Origin: Dictyoglomus sp.
GTDB taxonomy: Bacteria > Dictyoglomota > Dictyoglomia > Dictyoglomales > Dictyoglomaceae
Direction: 5' to 3'
DNA: 64,000 nucleotides
NCBI GenBank assembly: GCA_025060475.1
Contig: JANXBZ010000002.1
Coordinates: 62,001 to 126,000 of the forward strand
Position numbers and translations under genes: made by a program. Positions 8,350 through 36,560 of this stretch are shown in pieces (the stretch's first letter is position 1; each line of letters starts with the position of its first letter). The notes beneath the pieces are model-generated. The model made no database searches. It was not told the origin of the DNA and saw only the letters and a program-made list of their open reading frames with translations.

Positions 8350-9498
8350 TTACACCCCTTTGGTCTCTGCTTTCTTATTTAAGTAATCCTGATATAGATA
8401 CATTAATTCTTTATCAAAAAGAGGTCTCTTTAACTCTACAGCTAAAGCTCTAACAGATTTAAGTAGTTCTGTTGCTTCTTCCTCACTTAGTTGAATTCCA
8501 TATTCGGAAAATTTTCTAATTAAAGCATGGGTTCCTGAATGTTTACCTATTACTATCTGTCTTTCTCCTCCTACCTCTTCGGGAGAAAAGACCTCATAAG
8601 TTTTTGGATATTTTAAAACTCCATCTGCATGGATTCCAGATTCATGAGCAAAAATGTTCTTTCCTACAATTGTTTTATTTAGTGGAAGCTCTCTTGCAGA
8701 TGCTTTTGCAACATATTCACAAATTTCTTTAAGTTTAAAGGTTTTTATATCTAAATCTACATTATAGATATATTTTAAAGCCATAACTACTTCTTCTAAA
8801 GCAGCATTTCCAGCTCTTTCTCCTAATCCGTTTACTGTTACTCCTACATAAGTTGCTCCTGCCTTAACTCCTGCTAAGGCATTAGCTGTAGCCATACCAA
8901 AATCATTATGAGTGTGCATTTCTACAGGAATTCCAACTTCATCTATTATTTTTTTCACAATCTCGTAAGTGGTAAAGGGTTCTAAAATACCTACAGTATC
9001 ACAAAATCTTAGTCTATCCGCCCCTGCTTGTTTTGCCAGTCTTGCAAATTCTAATAGAAAGTCTAGATCAGTTCTTGATGCATCTTCTGCATTTACAGAG
9101 ACATATACTCCATGTTTTTTAGCAAATTCACAAGCCTTTACCATGTTTTCTAATACCCATTCTCTTGTTTTTCTTAATTTATACTTTATGTGAATATCAG
9201 AAGTAGAAATGGAGATTGCTACTGCATCAACCCCACATCTTAAAGAAGCTTCAATATCGCTAATAACAGCCCTATTCCATCCCATAATACTTGCTTTAAG
9301 TCCAGATTTTACAATTGCCTTTATTGCTTCTTCTTCATCACCACCCATGACTGGAATTCCAGCCTCAATTTGATGTACTCCTAATTCATCTAACATTTTA
9401 GCGATCTGTACCTTTTCAGTTTTAGAGAATACTACACCTGCTGTTTGTTCTCCATCTCTTAATGTAGTATCTACTATTTTTATATCTTCTTTTTTCAT
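8350..9498 (-). CDS. nifV: NifV-type homocitrate synthase
   Basis: A 382-residue DRE-TIM metallolyase that condenses acetyl-CoA with a 2-oxoacid. Motifs are DTTLRDGEQTAGVVF, GISTS-like strand AISISTSDIHIKYKL, NAEDASRTD, RLRFCDTVG, HTHNDFGMATANALAG and NGLGERAGNAALEE. RFCDTVG and HTHNDFGMATAN follow the NifV/homocitrate synthase pattern rather than that of 2-isopropylmalate synthase, and the long LeuA regulatory domain is missing. No nitrogenase gene is nearby, so the alpha-aminoadipate lysine route is one possible role. GGGAGG is well placed before ATG 9498. A terminator-bearing leader precedes it. Confidence 0.88.
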   Translation of the reverse strand: MKKEDIKIVDTTLRDGEQTAGVVFSKTEKVQIAKMLDELGVHQIEAGIPVMGGDEEEAIKAIVKSGLKASIMGWNRAVISDIEASLRCGVDAVAISISTSDIHIKYKLRKTREWVLENMVKACEFAKKHGVYVSVNAEDASRTDLDFLLEFARLAKQAGADRLRFCDTVGILEPFTTYEIVKKIIDEVGIPVEMHTHNDFGMATANALAGVKAGATYVGVTVNGLGERAGNAALEEVVMALKYIYNVDLDIKTFKLKEICEYVAKASARELPLNKTIVGKNIFAHESGIHADGVLKYPKTYEVFSPEEVGGERQIVIGKHSGTHALIRKFSEYGIQLSEEEATELLKSVRALAVELKRPLFDKELMYLYQDYLNKKAETKGV

Positions 9499-9520
9499 AT
9501 TCTTACCTCCCTAAGGTTTT

Positions 9521-9561
9521 TAAAAAAGAAAGAGGTGCTTTGGAAATACTCCAAAGCACCT
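9521..9561 (-). terminator. Terminator hairpin in the leader of the homocitrate synthase operon
   Basis: Arms 9533-9544 and 9550-9561 form a perfect 12-bp stem (core GGTGCTTTGGA/TCCAAAGCACC) with a 5-base loop. On the minus strand it is followed directly by TCTTTCTTTTTT, so it reads as an intrinsic terminator. It lies between the extended -10 at 9599-9607 and the gene start at 9498. With no promoter visible after it, operon transcripts have to pass through it, as in an attenuator. It could also simply terminate the upstream TM2 gene. Confidence 0.7.
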
Positions 9562-9598
9562 TCGCTTTTTCTCCATAAAATTTTATTTTTATGGAATT

Positions 9599-9607
9599 AT
9601 TATATCA
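9599..9607 (-). promoter_or_regulatory. Extended -10 promoter of the homocitrate synthase operon
   Basis: TGATATAAT on the minus strand is a perfect extended -10 with a weak TTTGGA at -35 spacing. The predicted start is near 9592, giving a leader of about 95 bases. An AT-rich inverted repeat (CCATAAAA 9573-9580, TTTTATGG 9587-9594) lies near the transcript 5' end, ahead of the terminator hairpin. Confidence 0.6.
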
Positions 9608-9612
9608 CATTT

Positions 9613-9888
9613 TTACCATTTCCAAACCAAATTTCCATTAATATCCTTCATTTTTCCCATAATAATAGTTATAAGATCAATTAATACCCATATTATTAAG
9701 GGAATAAAAAGATACCAATAAAACATCTTTAGAGTTATAGATAATACTATCCACATGAATCCAATAAATAGCATAAGAAGTCCTGTTCCAATCTTTCCTA
9801 TATAGAATCTATGGGCTCCAAATATTCCAAGAAAAATACAAAGAAGAAGGGCAATTTTTCTTGATTTATCAGAGAATCCCCTTGCCAT
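9613..9888 (-). CDS. TM2-domain membrane protein
   Basis: A 91-residue protein with a TM2 domain: FLGIFGAHRFYIGKIGTG near residue 20 is the family signature, followed by two hydrophobic segments and a charged tail. The frame extends 19 codons upstream, but AGGAGG at 9893-9900 fits ATG 9888 (MARGFSDKSRK), so I use that start. Upstream on the minus strand is TGTTATACT, an extended -10 that overlaps the plus-strand promoter of the HD gene. The gene ends within the promoter region of the homocitrate synthase operon. The function of TM2 proteins in bacteria is not established. Confidence 0.85.
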   Translation of the reverse strand: MARGFSDKSRKIALLLCIFLGIFGAHRFYIGKIGTGLLMLFIGFMWIVLSITLKMFYWYLFIPLIIWVLIDLITIIMGKMKDINGNLVWKW

Positions 9889-9938
9889 AGGACTCCTCCT
9901 TAATTTTAAATTTTTTGTGAGTATAACATATTTCTCCT

Positions 9939-9968
9939 TTGACAAAAAGAGGTTAAATATATTATGAT
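9939..9968 (+). promoter_or_regulatory. Consensus promoter of the HD-GYP gene
   Basis: TTGACA (9939-9944), an 18-base spacer and TATGAT (9963-9968). Transcription would start near 9975, downstream of the in-frame ATG at 9964 and about 7 bases before ATG 9982. It therefore decides the start codon and predicts a nearly leaderless mRNA. Confidence 0.65.
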
Positions 9969-9981
9969 TATTCTAATACTT

Positions 9982-11289
9982 ATGTTTGAAGAAAAAGATA
10001 AAGAAATAACTGTGTCTTTGTTTGATATAATATTTTCTTTATCAAGTACCATGGATCTAGTAAGTCCTGAGATTGTGACCCATTCTCAGAGAGTAGCTTA
10101 TATCTCTTATAGTATAGCAAAAGAACTAGGATATTCTTGGGATAAAATATACGACCTTATATTGGCAGGAATGCTTCATGATTTTGGACTTTTATCTTAT
10201 AAAGATATATTATCCGAAAGAGAGTTTGAATTTGACTTTATAAGCAAAACTCCACATTCCCATTCTTTTCTTACCTACTATTTGTTAAAAGATTTTTCAT
10301 ATTTTGAGAGAATTGCTGAATATATAAAATATCACCATTTACTATGGGATAATGGAAAAGGAGAGGAATTTAATGGAGAGAAGGTTCCCATAGAAAGTCA
10401 TATTCTTCATCTTGCAGATAGAATTGAAGTCCTTATTCGTAAAGGAGAGCATATATTAAATCAAACGGAAAGAATAGTAAAAACTATAAGAGAAAACTCT
10501 GGAAGAATATTTGTGCCTTATCTAGTTGAAGCCTTCTATAACTTAATTGATAAAGAATATTTTTGGTTAGATCTTACTTCAAACTATATTCCCAATATAA
10601 TAGTTAAGAAAGTACAAAAGGAAGATAAAAACTTGAGTTTTGACGATTTTGAGAGGTTATCAGAGATATTAGCAAAAACCATTGATTTTAAAAGTCAATT
10701 TACTTCAATTCACTCAAGAACAGTATCTATAATTTCCGAGAGTTTAGGAAAATACTTAGGTTTTTCCAAAGAAAAAATAAGATTATTAAAAATTTCAGGT
10801 TTACTTCATGATCTTGGCAAATTAGCTATCCCATTGGAGATTTTAGAAAAGGAAGGATCATTAAGTAGGAATGAATGGATAATATTAAGGAGTCATCCCT
10901 ACAATACCCATAGAATACTAGATAATTTAAGGGGAATGGAAGCTGTTAGAGATTGGGCATCTTATCATCATGAAAGACTTGATGGTAATGGATATCCTTT
11001 TCATATTACAAAAGATGAAATTCCTATTGAGGCTCAAATTGTTGCAATAGCAGATGTCTTTACTGCTCTTTCTGAAGATAGACCCTATAGAAAAGCTCTT
11101 GGTATGGAAGATGTAATGAGGGAAATGGAAAATGAAGTAAATAATGGAGGAGTATGTAGAAATTTATATAATCAGTTAAAAGCTATTAGCAAAGATTTAA
11201 GAGATATAATAGTAAAAGCCTCTTCTTACTCAAAAGAGGAATACGAAAAATTCAGAGAATTTGTAGAAAGAACTTATAATCTAAATTAA
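9982..11289 (+). CDS. Tandem HD / HD-GYP domain protein
   Basis: A cytosolic 435-residue protein with two HD domains. The first has the His at residue 34 (THSQRV), LHDFG (HD at 66-67) and HHLLWDNGKG, but no GYP motif. The second has IHSRTV, LLHDLGKLAI (276-277), HHERLDGNGYP (329-339) and IADVFTALSEDRPYR, so it is a true HD-GYP, a family that hydrolyses cyclic di-GMP. The first is probably a divergent, sensory or phosphohydrolase copy. ATG 9964 lies inside the promoter, so I choose ATG 9982. No Shine-Dalgarno is present for it. It is transcribed divergently from the TM2 gene. Confidence 0.85.
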   Translation: MFEEKDKEITVSLFDIIFSLSSTMDLVSPEIVTHSQRVAYISYSIAKELGYSWDKIYDLILAGMLHDFGLLSYKDILSEREFEFDFISKTPHSHSFLTYYLLKDFSYFERIAEYIKYHHLLWDNGKGEEFNGEKVPIESHILHLADRIEVLIRKGEHILNQTERIVKTIRENSGRIFVPYLVEAFYNLIDKEYFWLDLTSNYIPNIIVKKVQKEDKNLSFDDFERLSEILAKTIDFKSQFTSIHSRTVSIISESLGKYLGFSKEKIRLLKISGLLHDLGKLAIPLEILEKEGSLSRNEWIILRSHPYNTHRILDNLRGMEAVRDWASYHHERLDGNGYPFHITKDEIPIEAQIVAIADVFTALSEDRPYRKALGMEDVMREMENEVNNGGVCRNLYNQLKAISKDLRDIIVKASSYSKEEYEKFREFVERTYNLN

Positions 11290-11829
11290 TTATTTAATTC
11301 TTCCTCTCCATTTTAAATTTTTCATTCCATTTAAAAATTCAGGTATTTTCTCTTTTGGAAATCTAGGCCACGTTATAACAATTAGAAAAATAAGATAAGT
11401 AACAATAAGGATTCCATAATTAAAGAGATTTCTAAACGCTATATAAATCATCATCCCATAAGGAACTGCTTCAAGTCCTTGAGCTAGTTGTTCCGAGGGA
11501 AAGGCCCAAAGTCCTAAAAAGGTTATTATCAAAAAAAGAATTGAGATAAAAACAGATATAAATCTACTGAAGGTAAGATAAAGAAGAACTCCAAAAGATA
11601 CCATCATATCTGCGTATAAATCATGGGCTCCTATCCATGTTTGATAATTTACCTTAGATTTTCTTGCGAAAAATCCATCTAATATGTCAGTAAACCATGC
11701 AAAAATAAGCCAAAGTATTGCAGAGGGAAGACCATTTTTCCCGTGAGATAAACCTATAAAAGCTATCCAAAAACCTATAAGAAATCTTGATAAAGTAAGT
11801 GAATCTGCTAAGAGTTTTATATAAGTCAT
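11290..11829 (-). CDS. CDP-alcohol phosphatidyltransferase family protein
   Basis: A 179-residue membrane enzyme of the CDP-alcohol phosphotransferase family, which swaps CMP for an alcohol to make phospholipids. Several hydrophobic helices are evident. The signature region reads TDILDGFFAR, ten residues, then GAHDLYAD. The family pattern DGxxARx(8-9)Gx3Dx3D is close, but the spacing between G and the next D is one residue short. The catalytic Asp residues are still present. Which lipid is made (glycerol, inositol or other) is not clear. GGGAGG precedes the ATG. The stop abuts the HD gene end. Confidence 0.8.
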   Translation of the reverse strand: MTYIKLLADSLTLSRFLIGFWIAFIGLSHGKNGLPSAILWLIFAWFTDILDGFFARKSKVNYQTWIGAHDLYADMMVSFGVLLYLTFSRFISVFISILFLIITFLGLWAFPSEQLAQGLEAVPYGMMIYIAFRNLFNYGILIVTYLIFLIVITWPRFPKEKIPEFLNGMKNLKWRGRIK

Positions 11830-31062: not shown

Positions 31063-32220
31063 TTAAACATCTTTAAAAACAATTTCTCCCTCAACAATAG
31101 TCATTCTAACCTGAAAATTGTTATCAAAGATAACAATATCTGCATCCTTTCCCACATCAAGACTTCCTTTTATATTTTCTATTCCTAAAAGCAAAGCGGG
31201 AGAATAAGATGCCATAAATACAGCATCTTCTAATTTAATTCCCCCCATTTCCATCATGTTTTTTACCGCAATATTTAAAGTTAAAGTACTTCCTGCAATG
31301 GTGCCATCATATAAAGTTGCCTTCCCATTATTAACAGTTACCTTCTGTCCTGCCAGTTGATATTCTCCATCGGAAAGACCTGTTGCCATCATAGAATCAG
31401 TTACTAAGATTAATTTTTCTTTTGGTTTTGTCTTTATTAAAAGTTTTAGTATATATGGAGAAAGATGAATTCCATCTGCAATAACTTCTAAGCTTAAACT
31501 ATTCATTACCAATGCTATTCCTACAACTCCTACCTCTCTATGATGAAGAGGACGCATTCCGTTGAATATGTGGGTAATATGAGATAAGCCCAAAGATATA
31601 GCTTTTTCCATGTCTGAGGTTTTAGCATTGGTATGTCCTGCAGATATGATAATTCCTCTTTCTCTAAGATAATTTATAATCTCAAAACTTCCTTCCACCT
31701 CGGGAGCAATAGTAACTAATTTTACCTTTTCTCTCAATAATCTTTTTAAGATATTTATATCAGGTGACATAATACAATCTTCTCTTTGAGCTCCCTTATA
31801 TTTTTTATTTAAAAAGGGTCCCTCTAAATTAATTCCTAAAATCTTTGCTCCTTCAATTTTTCTTTCTTGTTTTTTAATATAATTTTCAATAGCATTTATA
31901 GCTTTCTCCATATCTTCTAAGGGAGCAGTGAGAACTGTGGGAAGAAATCCTGTTGTTCCCTTACTTGCAATGAATTTTGCTATGGTGTCAAGGGCAGATT
32001 CTTCCCCTTCAATAACATCTCTTCCAAAGGCACCATGAATATGAATGTCGATAAATCCTGGAGAAATGAAAAAATCTTTAAAATTATAAATTTCCTCAAA
32101 ATCCTTTAAGTTTCTGTCCTCTCCCACATAGATAATTTTACTTCCTTCTATTCCAATAGCTCCTTCCTCAATTATTCTATTAGGAGTAATGATTTTTCCA
32201 ATAATTAAAGTTTTCTCCAT
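31063..32220 (-). CDS. nagA: N-acetylglucosamine-6-phosphate deacetylase
   Basis: A 385-residue amidohydrolase that removes acetate from GlcNAc-6-phosphate. Motifs are SPGFIDIHIHGAFGRDVI (metal-binding HxH), GTTGFLPTVLT, NLEGPFLNKKYKGAQ, ISAGHTNAKTSDME, THIFNGMRPLHHREVGVVG, VTDSMMATGLSDG and GSTLTLNIAV. The family Asp is in VTDSM. GAGG precedes the ATG. It ends right at the stop of the convergent DUF4097-like gene. GlcNAc use fits cell-wall recycling or chitin-derived sugars, and no nagB is beside it. Confidence 0.93.
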   Translation of the reverse strand: MEKTLIIGKIITPNRIIEEGAIGIEGSKIIYVGEDRNLKDFEEIYNFKDFFISPGFIDIHIHGAFGRDVIEGEESALDTIAKFIASKGTTGFLPTVLTAPLEDMEKAINAIENYIKKQERKIEGAKILGINLEGPFLNKKYKGAQREDCIMSPDINILKRLLREKVKLVTIAPEVEGSFEIINYLRERGIIISAGHTNAKTSDMEKAISLGLSHITHIFNGMRPLHHREVGVVGIALVMNSLSLEVIADGIHLSPYILKLLIKTKPKEKLILVTDSMMATGLSDGEYQLAGQKVTVNNGKATLYDGTIAGSTLTLNIAVKNMMEMGGIKLEDAVFMASYSPALLLGIENIKGSLDVGKDADIVIFDNNFQVRMTIVEGEIVFKDV

Positions 32221-32237: not shown

Positions 32238-33884
32238 TTAAATTTTTCTCAATAATAATTTTACTCTTTCTCTTTGAAATTTACTATCAAAATAATAGAG
32301 GGAAAGAATTGTAGGGTTTTTTCTTAAGTTAAATTTTCTAATAAAGCCTTCAAGATCAATAATAGAAGGAAGGTTAATTTTCCATTTTCTATTGAATCTT
32401 ATATAATTTCTTACAAAAATATCTATTAAATTTCTATCTTTTTCTTCCAAATTTACGTAGAATTCTATAAACTCATCTCTTCTAATTTTTGAAAGACCTT
32501 TTAAAAAATTCAAGACAAGTTCTCTTCTTGCTGAATATAATGGATATTGGAGATTTACCATATTATTAAAAAATTTTATTAGTTCATAATCCTTCTTAAA
32601 TAAATTTATGAAATTTTGGGGATCTTCTAAGAGAGTTTTATAAAATAGCTTTAATCTATTTTTTCTAGATATATAAAAATTTTTTCCCCTTAAAATTCCC
32701 ATATATGTGGATATAAAAAGCAATATCCTTTCTTCTTGTGGAATTTTTAAGAATTGTTCTAAGTTATTTTTGAACTCCTCTTCTATTTTTATTTTTATGT
32801 ATTCTGTTATAAAAGGTATGGGAGTTTCTAATATATTTATGGGAATCTTCAATTTTTCCATAAATTTTCTTATAGTTTTATCTTTTATTTTCTTTGTTTT
32901 TCCTCTTAGAAGTAAAGATAAATTACAAGAAGTTATACCCAAAATTTTAGATAATTCACTAAGTTTTTCTGCTTTTTTAAGATTTAACAAATATTCTCTT
33001 AATTCCTTTGTATTTTCATAGGCTTTACTTTTGATATTAATATTATACTTTTTTGCAAAATCTATAGTGTTTTTGTAGTATTCCCTTGTCCCCCAACCTG
33101 AACCTTTTGGTAGACTTTTTTCAAAATAATTTATTATATTTATTGTCTCAAAGATAGATAGATCATTATTAATTTTTTGGACTTCAAGAGAGGTATCCAA
33201 TAAAAAAAATATATTACTAATATCTTCCCTATACCAACCTGCAAAATATAATGCTTTATTTGATAATTTTAAAGAGAATTTGGGATGCTTCTCTTTGAGA
33301 TACCATGCAGAGTTATTTAAGCTTAATATGATTCCTGTGGGATGGGGAATGTTTTTTGAAATCTTAAAGCATTCAAAATATAAAGAAATTCCATACCTTA
33401 GATTTCTTTTAACTTCCATTCTTGCCTTTGCTAATAATAAGAAAAGATAAGATGATCTATCAAGCTTATATTGTTTACTCCAAAATCTTATCTTTTGAAG
33501 ATTTAAATCTTCATATTTATGAACAAAGTAGTCAAAAAGGGTAGGGGCGGTTATTTTTCTTGCAAGACTTGGAATTTTAGCATAATTTTTTCTCAAATCC
33601 TGAAATAATCGATCTCCCTCAGGATTATTTAGATTCTTTAAATATAAAATCTTTTCTGAATATAATAAATAAAAGAGAGTTAGATTTTTCTTACAGTATT
33701 TTAAACCTTCTTCTATTTCTTTAAGAGCATTTTTGTAATTTCTTTCCCACTCTAATTTTTGAGCCTTAAAATAATGTTTCCATGCTCTATGGATCTTTTT
33801 CTCAAGGATAAAATTAAGAAAAGGTTTTGAAAACACTCCATATTTAAAAAGTATATATGCAATATTGGGAACTTTTCTGTTCAT
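32238..33884 (-). CDS. Large TPR-like / HTH regulator of unknown family
   Basis: A 548-residue, lysine-rich, mostly helical protein. Residues about 31-100 look like TPR helices (AWKHYFKAQKLEWERNYKNA) and 145-220 like further TPR units. A Cro/XRE-like helix-turn-helix is visible at about 296-345 (LSKILGITSCNLSLLLRGKT). About 200 helical residues follow, with no name I can give. ATG 33884 is four bases from the predicted transcript start and has no ribosome binding site. TPR plus HTH beside a small secreted-peptide gene recalls RRNPP peptide regulators, though those have the HTH at the N-terminus. Function is inferred, not shown. Confidence 0.6.
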   Translation of the reverse strand: MNRKVPNIAYILFKYGVFSKPFLNFILEKKIHRAWKHYFKAQKLEWERNYKNALKEIEEGLKYCKKNLTLFYLLYSEKILYLKNLNNPEGDRLFQDLRKNYAKIPSLARKITAPTLFDYFVHKYEDLNLQKIRFWSKQYKLDRSSYLFLLLAKARMEVKRNLRYGISLYFECFKISKNIPHPTGIILSLNNSAWYLKEKHPKFSLKLSNKALYFAGWYREDISNIFFLLDTSLEVQKINNDLSIFETINIINYFEKSLPKGSGWGTREYYKNTIDFAKKYNINIKSKAYENTKELREYLLNLKKAEKLSELSKILGITSCNLSLLLRGKTKKIKDKTIRKFMEKLKIPINILETPIPFITEYIKIKIEEEFKNNLEQFLKIPQEERILLFISTYMGILRGKNFYISRKNRLKLFYKTLLEDPQNFINLFKKDYELIKFFNNMVNLQYPLYSARRELVLNFLKGLSKIRRDEFIEFYVNLEEKDRNLIDIFVRNYIRFNRKWKINLPSIIDLEGFIRKFNLRKNPTILSLYYFDSKFQRERVKLLLRKI

Positions 33885-33894
33885 AATAATTTTA

Positions 33895-33903
33895 ATTATA
33901 TCA
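33895..33903 (-). promoter_or_regulatory. Extended -10 promoter of the TPR/HTH gene
   Basis: TGATATAAT on the minus strand puts the transcript start near 33888, four bases before ATG 33884. It implies a nearly leaderless mRNA. The rest of the 181-base gap to the peptide gene is AT-rich, with no plus-strand promoter I can call with confidence. Confidence 0.6.
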
Positions 33904-34065
33904 GAAAAAATTGTATAAAAAGAAATTTATAAGAATTGAAAAATAAAGAGAAAAAAGAAATTTTTAAATAAGATTTGATAAGAGATTTTAAAAGGAAAAA
34001 TTTTGAAAGTCAAATGATTCTTGATAAAGTAAAATCCAGAAAATTATTTGTTTAGGAGGTTAAAA

Positions 34066-34215
34066 ATGAAAAAAAGAATTTTATCTATAGTTTTAATAAT
34101 TATCTTATTTCTTTTTAGTATTGCAATAGCAGATCCCAATGAGGCTGATGGGAATCAAACTACAAGTCTTCTGCCAGTGGTTAAAATAGAAAGGGAGGTT
34201 TCTGTAAAAGATTAA
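34066..34215 (+). CDS. Small secreted peptide precursor (49 codons)
   Basis: ATG 34066 is preceded by AGGAGG at ideal spacing. The product starts MKKRILSIVLIIILFLFS, then IAIADPNEADGN: lysine/arginine head, a hydrophobic core of about 15 and an AxA-type cleavage site (IAIA|D). Mature length would be about 27 residues, ending SLLPVVKIEREVSVKD. A strong terminator follows 15 bases after the stop, which is unusual for random frames. I know no family. Its size and build resemble pro-peptides of bacterial signalling systems, and the divergent neighbour is a TPR/HTH protein. Other options are a membrane-interacting or regulatory peptide. Confidence 0.7.
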   Translation: MKKRILSIVLIIILFLFSIAIADPNEADGNQTTSLLPVVKIEREVSVKD

Positions 34216-34229
34216 AAAATTATTCTTAA

Positions 34230-34260
34230 ATGGGGAAGGTTATTCTTCCCCATATTTTTT
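34230..34260 (+). terminator. Intrinsic terminator after the peptide gene
   Basis: ATGGGGAAG (34230-34238), a 6-base loop and CTTCCCCAT (34245-34253) form a 9-bp stem followed by ATTTTTT. It ends about nine bases before ATG 34269 of the sensor gene. Expression of the sensor therefore depends on readthrough or on a promoter I do not see. Confidence 0.85.
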
Positions 34261-34268
34261 GAAAATAA

Positions 34269-36560
34269 ATGAGAAAAATTATAATTATTTTTTTAAACAT
34301 ACTAATAATATCCTTTCTTTTTGGAGAGACAAATAAAGATTATATCCATATAGCAGGAGATTATAAATTTCCACCCTTTGAATACTTAGATGAGGATGGA
34401 AATGCGAGGGGTTTTTCTGTAGATATTATTAATGAACTTAGTAAAGAGCTTAAAAAAAATGTAGTTATTGAACTTATACCATGGGAACAAGCAATTTCTA
34501 AACTAAGGAAAAAAGAGGTAGATGGAGTAGCATTGATGAGAATTACTGAGGAAAGAAAAAAGGAATTTGATTTTGTTCCCTATTTTGAAAATTTTAGCGT
34601 CATAGTTGTTTTAAAAGACTCTCCTATACAAAACTTTATGGATTTAAGGGGTAAAAAAATCTCTTGTTTAAATTTGGATGTTGCTCATAGTTTTCTTTTA
34701 AAAGTGGGAGAGGTATTTCCTAAAACTTCTTCTGAAGAAGTATTAAGATCAGTTTTAAACAAAGAAGTATCTGCAGGAGTTGTTAATTACTATGTGGCAA
34801 GATGGATAATAAATAAAAATGATTGGCATGATAAATTAAAAATTCTTTCCGATAAACTTTTTACAAATTATGCAGGTATAGCTCTTCCCAAAGATAGTCC
34901 TTATTTAGATGAAATTCAAAGGGGAATTTCTAAGATTATTAAAAGTCCTGTTTACAATAATCTTATTTTAAAATGGTTTGGAGAAGAAGTTATCTTAAAG
35001 GAAGAAGTAAGAAGAAAAGAAATTTTTAGCCAAATTCTAATTTATATTTCTCTTTTCATTCTGCTACTTCTTTTAGGAGTTTTTATTAGTAGAAGATATT
35101 TAAAAAAAGAAATATATAGACAAATCCTTTACATTAGAAGTCTTTATAATTTTCTAAAGGATACCTTTTCTAAGGAAATAGAAGAAATAGAAGAAATATA
35201 TTTTGAAAAAATAAAAGAGATATTTCCTAAGTGTAAAATAAAATATTTTAAAAAAACTAACGGAGATTATTTATTATTAAAATCTTATCCCGAAGAGAAA
35301 AGTTATTCCCTTAATTTGGAGAGCTTAACAGAAATTCCAGGGGAAAAGTATTTTTTCAAGGACACCAAAAAGGTTTTTTCCTGTGTTGTAATTGAGGGAG
35401 AGACGGAAAAATATAAAGAAGTTTTTCAAATCTTATCTAAGGAGTTTGAAACTCTTCTTTTAAATCTTGAGTCAGAAAGAAAATTAAAGCAATCTGAAGA
35501 ATTTTCTAAACTTTTAGATTCTTTTTCTTCTATATATAGGGATAAATCTTTAAACTTAGAAGATTTTCTTAATAGAATTATAAAATGTTTACAAGGGGAT
35601 GCAGGATCAATCATGATTTATTTCGAAGAGGAAAAGGTTCTTAAGATAAAGGCGAGTGTGGGTCTTCCTGAGGAAGTTGTGGAAAAAACGGTATTAAAAC
35701 TGGGAGAGGGAATTGCAGGGTGGGTTGCTGAGAATAAAGTACCTTTAATTTTAGAAGATGTTTACAAAGATAAGAGATTTAAAATTATTGAACCTAGAAT
35801 AAATATTAAATCTTCCATTTCTTATCCCTTAATCCATGAAGGAGAATTAATAGGAGTTTTAAATATAAATAGTTTTAAAGAATATAGAAAATTTACCGAA
35901 GAAAACCTCTTAATAATTGAAAAGATAGCCCCTCTCTTAGCATTAGCTTTATATAAAGAAGAATTAAGAAATAAGATAAAAATATTAGATCGAGAAGCAT
36001 TATTTATATTAGTAGAAGCTATAGATGCAAGGGATCCATATACAGGAGGTCATTCTCGAGGTGTGAGAGATTTTTCTATGGAGTTAGGGAGGAAAATAGG
36101 ATTGGATGAGGAAGATTTAAAAAAATTAGAATATGCAAGTTATCTTCATGATGTAGGAAAGATAAAAGTACCTGATTTCATATTAAGAAAACCAGGAAGG
36201 TTAACTGAAGAAGAATATAATGTGATAAAACTTCATACCATATGGGGAGAGGATATTGTTAAGAATTTTTCAGTTTTTAAAGGAATTAGTTCCATTATAA
36301 GATATCATCATGAAAGATGGGATGGAAAAGGATATCCCGATGGTTTAATAGAGGAAGAAATTCCTCTTTTCTCAAGAATTATTGCACTATCTGATAGTTT
36401 TCAAGCAATGACCTCTTTCAGACCTTACAGAAAAAAACTTACTTTAGAAGAGGCAATAGAAGAAATAAAGATAAATAGGGGTAAGCAGTTTGACCCCTAT
36501 TTATCTGATATATTTATAGAGACAATATTAGAGAAAATGAAAAAGAGTTTAATCCTCTAA
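34269..36560 (+). CDS. Membrane sensor: SBP-type domain, GAF, HD-GYP
   Basis: A 763-residue membrane protein. It has a signal peptide (about 1-19), a bacterial extracellular solute-binding domain family 3 (about 24-240, GDYKFPPFEYLDEDGNARGF), one membrane helix (about 255-275), a GAF domain (about 425-565, GDAGSIMIYF, GEGIAGWVAENK) and an HD-GYP domain (about 590-755) with YLHDVGKIKVP (H627, D628) and HHERWDGKGYPDGL. HD-GYP domains hydrolyse cyclic di-GMP, so it could turn an outside small-molecule or peptide signal into a change of that messenger. No ribosome binding site precedes ATG 34269, which follows directly on a terminator. The C-terminus overlaps the GH1 gene by 12 bases. Confidence 0.88.
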   Translation: MRKIIIIFLNILIISFLFGETNKDYIHIAGDYKFPPFEYLDEDGNARGFSVDIINELSKELKKNVVIELIPWEQAISKLRKKEVDGVALMRITEERKKEFDFVPYFENFSVIVVLKDSPIQNFMDLRGKKISCLNLDVAHSFLLKVGEVFPKTSSEEVLRSVLNKEVSAGVVNYYVARWIINKNDWHDKLKILSDKLFTNYAGIALPKDSPYLDEIQRGISKIIKSPVYNNLILKWFGEEVILKEEVRRKEIFSQILIYISLFILLLLLGVFISRRYLKKEIYRQILYIRSLYNFLKDTFSKEIEEIEEIYFEKIKEIFPKCKIKYFKKTNGDYLLLKSYPEEKSYSLNLESLTEIPGEKYFFKDTKKVFSCVVIEGETEKYKEVFQILSKEFETLLLNLESERKLKQSEEFSKLLDSFSSIYRDKSLNLEDFLNRIIKCLQGDAGSIMIYFEEEKVLKIKASVGLPEEVVEKTVLKLGEGIAGWVAENKVPLILEDVYKDKRFKIIEPRINIKSSISYPLIHEGELIGVLNINSFKEYRKFTEENLLIIEKIAPLLALALYKEELRNKIKILDREALFILVEAIDARDPYTGGHSRGVRDFSMELGRKIGLDEEDLKKLEYASYLHDVGKIKVPDFILRKPGRLTEEEYNVIKLHTIWGEDIVKNFSVFKGISSIIRYHHERWDGKGYPDGLIEEEIPLFSRIIALSDSFQAMTSFRPYRKKLTLEEAIEEIKINRGKQFDPYLSDIFIETILEKMKKSLIL

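Follow-up and report, generated by a model that had tools for sequence, protein, structure and literature searches.

A secreted-peptide gene paired with a divergent TPR-HTH regulator in Dictyoglomaceae: a candidate peptide-communication module

Peptide, regulator and sensor genes at the locus

A 64-kb stretch of DNA from a Dictyoglomaceae genome (G000; 1.72 Mb in 81 contigs), henceforth referred to as the window and corresponding to contig C2:62001-126000, contains a 49-codon gene for a small secreted peptide. The gene lies between a divergent gene for a regulator with tetratricopeptide repeats (TPR) and a helix-turn-helix (HTH) and a gene for a membrane-bound HD-GYP sensor. These three genes had been singled out in a preliminary description of the DNA, and all of the features named there are present in the sequence. 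The pairing of peptide and regulator recurs in relatives from two phyla, and the locus is read here as a probable peptide-receptor communication module in which the HD-GYP protein serves as output, with peptide binding and signalling inferred from the sequences.

The propeptide gene (34066-34215, forward strand; 49 aa) is preceded by the ribosome binding site AGGAGG (34054-34059, forward) and separated from the sensor gene by an intrinsic terminator (34230-34263, forward; stem at 34230-34253, then ATTTTTT), as first described. The encoded signal peptide, MKKRILSIVLIIILFLFSIAIA with D as the first residue after the cleavage point, has a K-K-R n-region, a long hydrophobic stretch and an AxA-type cleavage site (A-I-A), and is followed by an exported part of ~27 residues with the core NQTTSLLPVV. 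A scan combining a signal-peptide heuristic with ribosome binding sites identified this gene as the only short signal-peptide open reading frame (ORF) outside genes in the whole window. Ka was lower than Ks in every peptide pair, indicating conservation as a protein, with synonymous change saturated in the distant pairs. An RNA element or riboswitch near the peptide gene was rejected upon an Rfam search that returned no match.

The regulator gene (32238-33884, reverse strand; 548 aa, receptor-like) starts 181 bp from the peptide gene. Structure prediction had been named beforehand as a test of the TPR assignment, and the AlphaFold model, built with 58 homologs (pLDDT 92, pTM 0.91), predicts a superhelix of helical hairpins, then the HTH, then a second helical domain. 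The N-terminal TPR superhelix with its putative peptide groove comprises residues 1-280 (33045-33884, reverse), the Cro/C1-type HTH residues 293-345 (32850-33008, reverse) and the C-terminal all-helical domain residues 356-547 (32244-32819, reverse). The HTH therefore sits mid-protein between two helical halves, as had been remarked at the outset. No Pfam or NCBIfam model covers the regulator family; its members match only generic models (TPR_12, best 9.8e-10; HTH_26, 4.2e-08; HTH_3, 8.1e-08). The original designation as a TPR-like/HTH protein is thus firm at the level of the family, whereas in this member the repeats were recognized by eye as "TPR-like" and the HTH match is weak (HTH_26, E = 0.028).

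Intact family members span 473-628 aa and share the near-invariant residues H181, L189, N190, W194, D230 and T231. N190/N191 are located in a TPR A-helix, and known peptide-binding TPRs use Asn in the A-helix. Exactly the HTH segment is missing in ten intact relatives, which keep the TPR domain and, in six of the ten cases, the divergent peptide. On the family tree the HTH was lost at least twice, and the label of an HD-GYP partner likewise needs two changes.

The sensor gene (34269-36560, forward strand; 763 aa) encodes a protein with a periplasmic solute-binding protein (SBP) domain, a transmembrane segment, a GAF domain and an HD-GYP domain, and domain matches thereby support the sensor architecture initially proposed (SBP_bac_3, 5.4e-28; GAF_2, 6e-15; HD_5, 3e-40). 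The SBP_bac_3 domain occupies residues 26-239 (34344-34985, forward) and the HD-GYP domain residues 581-744 (36009-36500, forward). The latter contains an intact HHERWDGKGYP motif (consensus HHE-x-x-DGxGYP), which predicts a cyclic di-GMP (c-di-GMP) phosphodiesterase. Domain order and motifs are those of ordinary SBP-GAF-HD-GYP phosphodiesterases, from which the window sensor differs solely by its conserved position behind a peptide gene.

Conservation of the pair and of its promoter element

Pairing of the secreted-peptide gene with the regulator, as claimed in the preliminary description, was borne out across the family. Among the 75 members with enough upstream sequence, a strict Sec-type short ORF occurs within 700 nt upstream in 46, and it is divergent in all 46 (46/46). 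The same scan applied to 153 control genes of the same loci gave one match in any orientation and none that was divergent. Sec-type ORF density per kb of non-coding DNA was 0.70 near the regulators versus 0.07 elsewhere, and two of the seven distant matches resemble the same peptide. The peptides can be aligned across both phyla and have in common, besides the signal peptide, a short stretch of acidic or Asp-Pro character and a core (NQTTSLLPVV, NKTNSVSPIV, YKTDSINPQI, SSTNSSNPQI) that follows the pattern [NYS]xTxSxxPx[IV]. Their exported parts are acidic, 20-30 residues long and not hydrophobic.

Conserved synteny had also been set as a test in advance. Three other Dictyoglomaceae genomes, G003 (L019), G004 (L018) and G006 (L024), have all three genes with their order unchanged, although the regulator of the last is cut by a contig end. 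G003 and G004 belong to another genus and encode the peptides MKKIIAIVIIALLTLLNIVLADEAPGGNQTFSSKPPIEVVLEVSSK and MKKIIAIIIIVVLTLLNAVLADEVIIANQTCISKPPVEIVVETSSK. G001 has suffered one deletion that took out the peptide together with the N-terminal half of the regulator and a portion of the SBP domain. G002 no longer has the regulator, and its peptide frame persists but has neither promoter nor start codon; its sensor is complete, with unchanged pocket residues. Further regulator paralogs in G003 and G004 were rejected as full copies of the trio, since they are devoid of the HTH and lie at islands for bacteriocins or ribosomally synthesized and post-translationally modified peptides (RiPPs). A profile from the first eight homologs contained no conserved stretch; a three-sequence profile was used instead and matched one known Dictyoglomus metagenome-assembled genome as its sole hit.

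A search with the regulator profile identified an equally complete homolog in G056, a member of a second phylum that is most likely Thermotogota. There the regulator (L090:7032-8603) is accompanied by a divergent 51-codon Sec-type ORF (L090:6827-6672) and then by a GAF-HD-GYP protein without SBP domain. This trio is repeated in three further genomes of the same genus (L143, L144 and L145) and, with a broken regulator, in a fourth (L155). The regulator family was found in 59 of 103 genomes of the second phylum, often in many copies, and, among 386 genomes sampled from across the domain, solely in Dictyoglomaceae and two second-phylum genomes. Carriage by phage or plasmid was rejected, as neither the plasmid nor the phage collection contained a family match at the sensitivity used. 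In most relatives the pair adjoins a peptide-modification operon with radical-SAM and ABC transporter genes, and an SBP-type sensor is absent from most pairs.

Two second-phylum regions are recorded in addition. In G329, a relic of the regulator C-terminus (L092:5986-6303) lies ~3 kb from an SBP-GAF-GGDEF sensor (9430-11301). Within 20 kb of G473 (L157, L158), in the company of radical-SAM and ABC genes, lie three regulators that all have a Sec-type ORF divergent from them. We take G473 to be T. maritima, in which case its regulators at 1333316-1352490 presumably fall within the TM1298-TM1336 stationary-phase locus of Frock et al. 2013.

A promoter scan of the window alone performed at chance level (29 sites vs 25.6 expected). 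Comparison among loci singled out TTGAAA-16-TAAAGT at 34003-34030 as the conserved promoter of the peptide gene, with the -35 box TTGAAA at 34003-34008 and, 16 nt further on, the -10 box TAAAGT at 34025-34030 (forward). An operator-like imperfect palindrome, TTTGAAAGTCAAATG (34002-34016, forward), overlaps the -35 box and has its sole exact match in this genome here. The peptide promoters of the four intact Dictyoglomaceae loci carry TTTGA-N3-TCAAAT with fixed arms and the spacers AAG, TTA, TTA and CTG; G000 and G006 each have a single copy of the full palindrome TTTGANNNTCAAATG, in both cases at the peptide gene. The element TTGANNNTCAWATG, comprising the -35 box and part of the spacer with a -10 box 16-17 nt further on, was exact in 15 of 36 peptide loci from both phyla and present with at most one mismatch in 22, compared with no exact occurrence and 0.7% within one mismatch in Markov shuffles.

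Exact TTGAAAGTCAWATG sites in Dictyoglomaceae genomes all lie within promoters, namely those of the window peptide, of radical-SAM, Cys-rich peptide, bacteriocin-like and ABC islands in G003 and G004, and of one ABC transporter in G002. Operator matches with one mismatch were set aside as chance, being mostly inside coding sequence. In the second phylum, the exact operator motif is also found at the divergent peptide of HTH-less receptors (L136, L137 and L139), from which an HTH-bearing paralog would act in trans at these loci.

Repeated cassettes of radical-SAM, ABC and Cys-rich peptide genes and of bacteriocin-like genes were observed on contig C1 of G004 (L022 and L026; ~217-256 kb). Each cassette stands behind TTGAAAGTCATATG, some adjoin HTH-less TPR paralogs, and several of the propeptide copies are decayed. 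The exact TTGAAAGTCATATG promoter element was further observed in G002, a genome without the regulator, before an ABC transporter with a divergent nucleotidyltransferase-like ORF (L071; C17:26659).

Proposed mechanism and alternative explanations

The proposed module builds on the conserved pairing, the operator-bearing divergent promoter, the HTH and TPR domains, the conservation of an exportable peptide and the presence of importers, all of which are observed. The propeptide would be exported by the Sec route and trimmed, and the mature peptide, probably containing the [NYS]xTxSxxPx[IV] core, would be re-imported by an oligopeptide ABC importer, the ATPases of which are encoded in all eight genomes tested. 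Inside the cell the peptide would bind to the regulator, which is encoded divergently, in its TPR groove; the regulator may in turn bind TTGANNNTCAWATG over the -35 box and control, in either direction, the peptide gene and the operon behind it. In the window lineage the gene behind the peptide encodes an HD-GYP phosphodiesterase, so the output would be the c-di-GMP level. The SBP domain would feed in a small-molecule cue of its own. Most relatives would instead use the operon to produce a radical-SAM-modified peptide and an ABC exporter.

Several observations weigh against this proposal. The strict scan found no peptide at 29 of the 75 regulators; relaxed criteria added 10, most of them resembling the same peptides, but also matched 38 of the 153 controls. 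The 75 loci are not independent, since several are near-identical paralogs or orthologs, and signal peptides were called by our own heuristic rather than by SignalP. Foldseek searches with both regulator models returned generic TPR proteins only, none with E < 0.001; PlcR-PapR ranked 37th with the first model and NprR-NprX 46th with the second. LGN bound to extended peptides was among the top matches, and the Foldseek result was not accepted as proving RRNPP kinship. Joint loss of peptide and regulator occurred twice (G001 and G002), with the sensor surviving without them; this is suggestive only, because each loss may be a single deletion. Finally, a nagA-like gene (31063-32220, reverse) lies 17 bp 3′ of the regulator gene in the same orientation, suggesting that the regulator has another role as well.

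The small protein could alternatively be a secreted effector or envelope peptide, bacteriocin-like or structural, made under a regulator that senses some other cue, with no peptide signalling involved. The peptide-modification operons beside many relatives and the short, acidic, non-hydrophobic exported parts are consistent with such a role. This explanation is nevertheless unlikely, given that the core is conserved in two phyla whether the neighbour is a modified-peptide operon or an HD-GYP enzyme, and that the one-to-one divergent pairing with a TPR receptor is maintained even where the HTH is missing.

In the reading first proposed, the peptide is received twice, in the cytosol by the TPR regulator and in the periplasm by the SBP domain of the sensor. 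Wherever the trio is intact in Dictyoglomaceae, the sensor gene does come directly after that of the peptide. Comparison with the amino-acid clamp of LAO (R77 and D161; reference sequence entered by hand) indicated that the ligand Arg is kept and the Asp that binds the alpha-amino group is replaced by Asn in all five orthologs, including that of G002; the ligand would hence not be a plain amino acid bound in the usual way. The second receiver was not supported by the remaining evidence and is considered improbable: in the second phylum an SBP domain is missing from the HD-GYP partner, most pairs have no such sensor, the G002 sensor and its pocket are intact although the peptide gene there has lost promoter and start codon, and SBP_bac_3 homologs with solved structures bind amino acids. 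The Asp-to-Asn replacement in five orthologs, one of them from a peptide-less genome, together with the missing SBP domain in the second phylum, argues that this domain responds to something other than the peptide and that it is the link to c-di-GMP output which has been conserved. The HD-GYP protein is more likely the output, as a predicted phosphodiesterase.

A third possibility is that the regulator controls amino-sugar (nagA) metabolism locally and that the peptide is incidental. The co-oriented nagA of the window is in keeping with this, as is the SIS-domain ORF that lies between the regulator and nagA in L018, L019 and L025. A crude listing of neighbours revealed no nagA beside Thermotogota-like regulators, most of which do have the divergent peptide, and nagA persists beside the regulator relic in G001; the idea is therefore very doubtful. 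If the ORF were a leader peptide or attenuator, translated to govern read-through to the sensor, this would account for the terminator present 3′ of the ORF in all four intact Dictyoglomaceae loci (the window, L018, L019 and L024); such a role is hardly credible in view of Ka < Ks, the conserved signal peptide, occurrence before unrelated operons and the lack of an Rfam match.

Relation to known peptide-signalling systems

Cytoplasmic TPR receptors for secreted peptides have been portrayed as a Bacillota speciality (PMC10075063, PMC9765709). RRNPPA members such as PlcR-PapR, NprR-NprX and Rap-Phr have an N-terminal HTH with C-terminal TPRs and were described from Firmicutes (PMC9765709, PMC12700828). 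RRNPP_detector searches for a small Sec propeptide, adjacency and a TPR receptor of ~250-500 aa and discards clusters with N-terminal TPR receptors (PMC10075063); the present system agrees with all of its features except receptor size, at 548 aa. Outgroup searching has been called a useful approach (PMC12700828).

The initial reading of the locus as an RRNPP-type system held in part. A Sec propeptide within 10-100 aa (49 aa with an AxA site, by the heuristic test), conserved adjacency and a predicted TPR superhelix, backed by TPR Pfam matches in family members, are all present. Kinship was not found: the HTH is central instead of N-terminal, no RRNPPA member was matched by the regulator in a PDB sequence search, and Foldseek E-values exceeded 0.001 throughout. 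The system would thus work like RRNPPA but is not filed as RRNPPA, because an N-terminal HTH and sequence kinship were looked for and not found. The two are alike in placing a TPR superhelix receptor beside a small Sec-exported propeptide, in having forms with and without HTH (compare PlcR/NprR and Rap), in the presence of oligopeptide importers and, by analogy, in the control of biosynthetic clusters. They differ in that here the HTH is central, the hosts are not Bacillota, the peptide gene is always divergent and a c-di-GMP operon is attached to some members.

Rgg/SHP control of radical-SAM RiPPs in streptococci, as outlined in PMC13361665, likewise involves a peptide-receptor pair beside radical-SAM operons. 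The peptides there are short and hydrophobic, whereas those described here have Sec signals and acidic exported parts, and the receptor families are unrelated by sequence.

Peptide-based quorum sensing has been reported in T. maritima (Johnson et al. 2005, as cited in PMC4187201). In that summary, a peptide signal raises exopolysaccharide at high density, in the same other phylum that holds the regulator family. The DNA upstream of groES in G473 contains no ORF of the window-peptide kind. The T. maritima signal in the 2005 abstract of Johnson and colleagues is said to be linked to c-di-GMP proteins as well, and its peptide is reportedly TM0504, beside groES; to our knowledge, its receptor has not been identified. 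TM0504 was rejected as the same peptide, and the two appear to be different genes because of the missing ORF upstream of groES. A search of the open-access literature found no paper joining Dictyoglomus or Thermotogae to RRNPP-type peptide receptors.

The chances are about even that these loci represent a peptide-communication family of their own in two deep-branching thermophile phyla, separate from or very distant to RRNPPA. The central HTH would have been lost repeatedly, so that HTH-less and HTH-bearing paralogs share one operator and form a network, and the outputs would be modified-peptide operons or c-di-GMP hydrolysis, the latter in one lineage or more of each phylum. If true, bacteria would have a way of communicating chemically that is as yet undescribed and lies outside the phylum of the known systems. 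A similar-looking family with another domain order in Thermotogota-like bacteria and Dictyoglomota would imply either a very early origin or two origins, and for cultivable hyperthermophiles with reported peptide signalling it would provide candidate signals and receptors as well as an operator.

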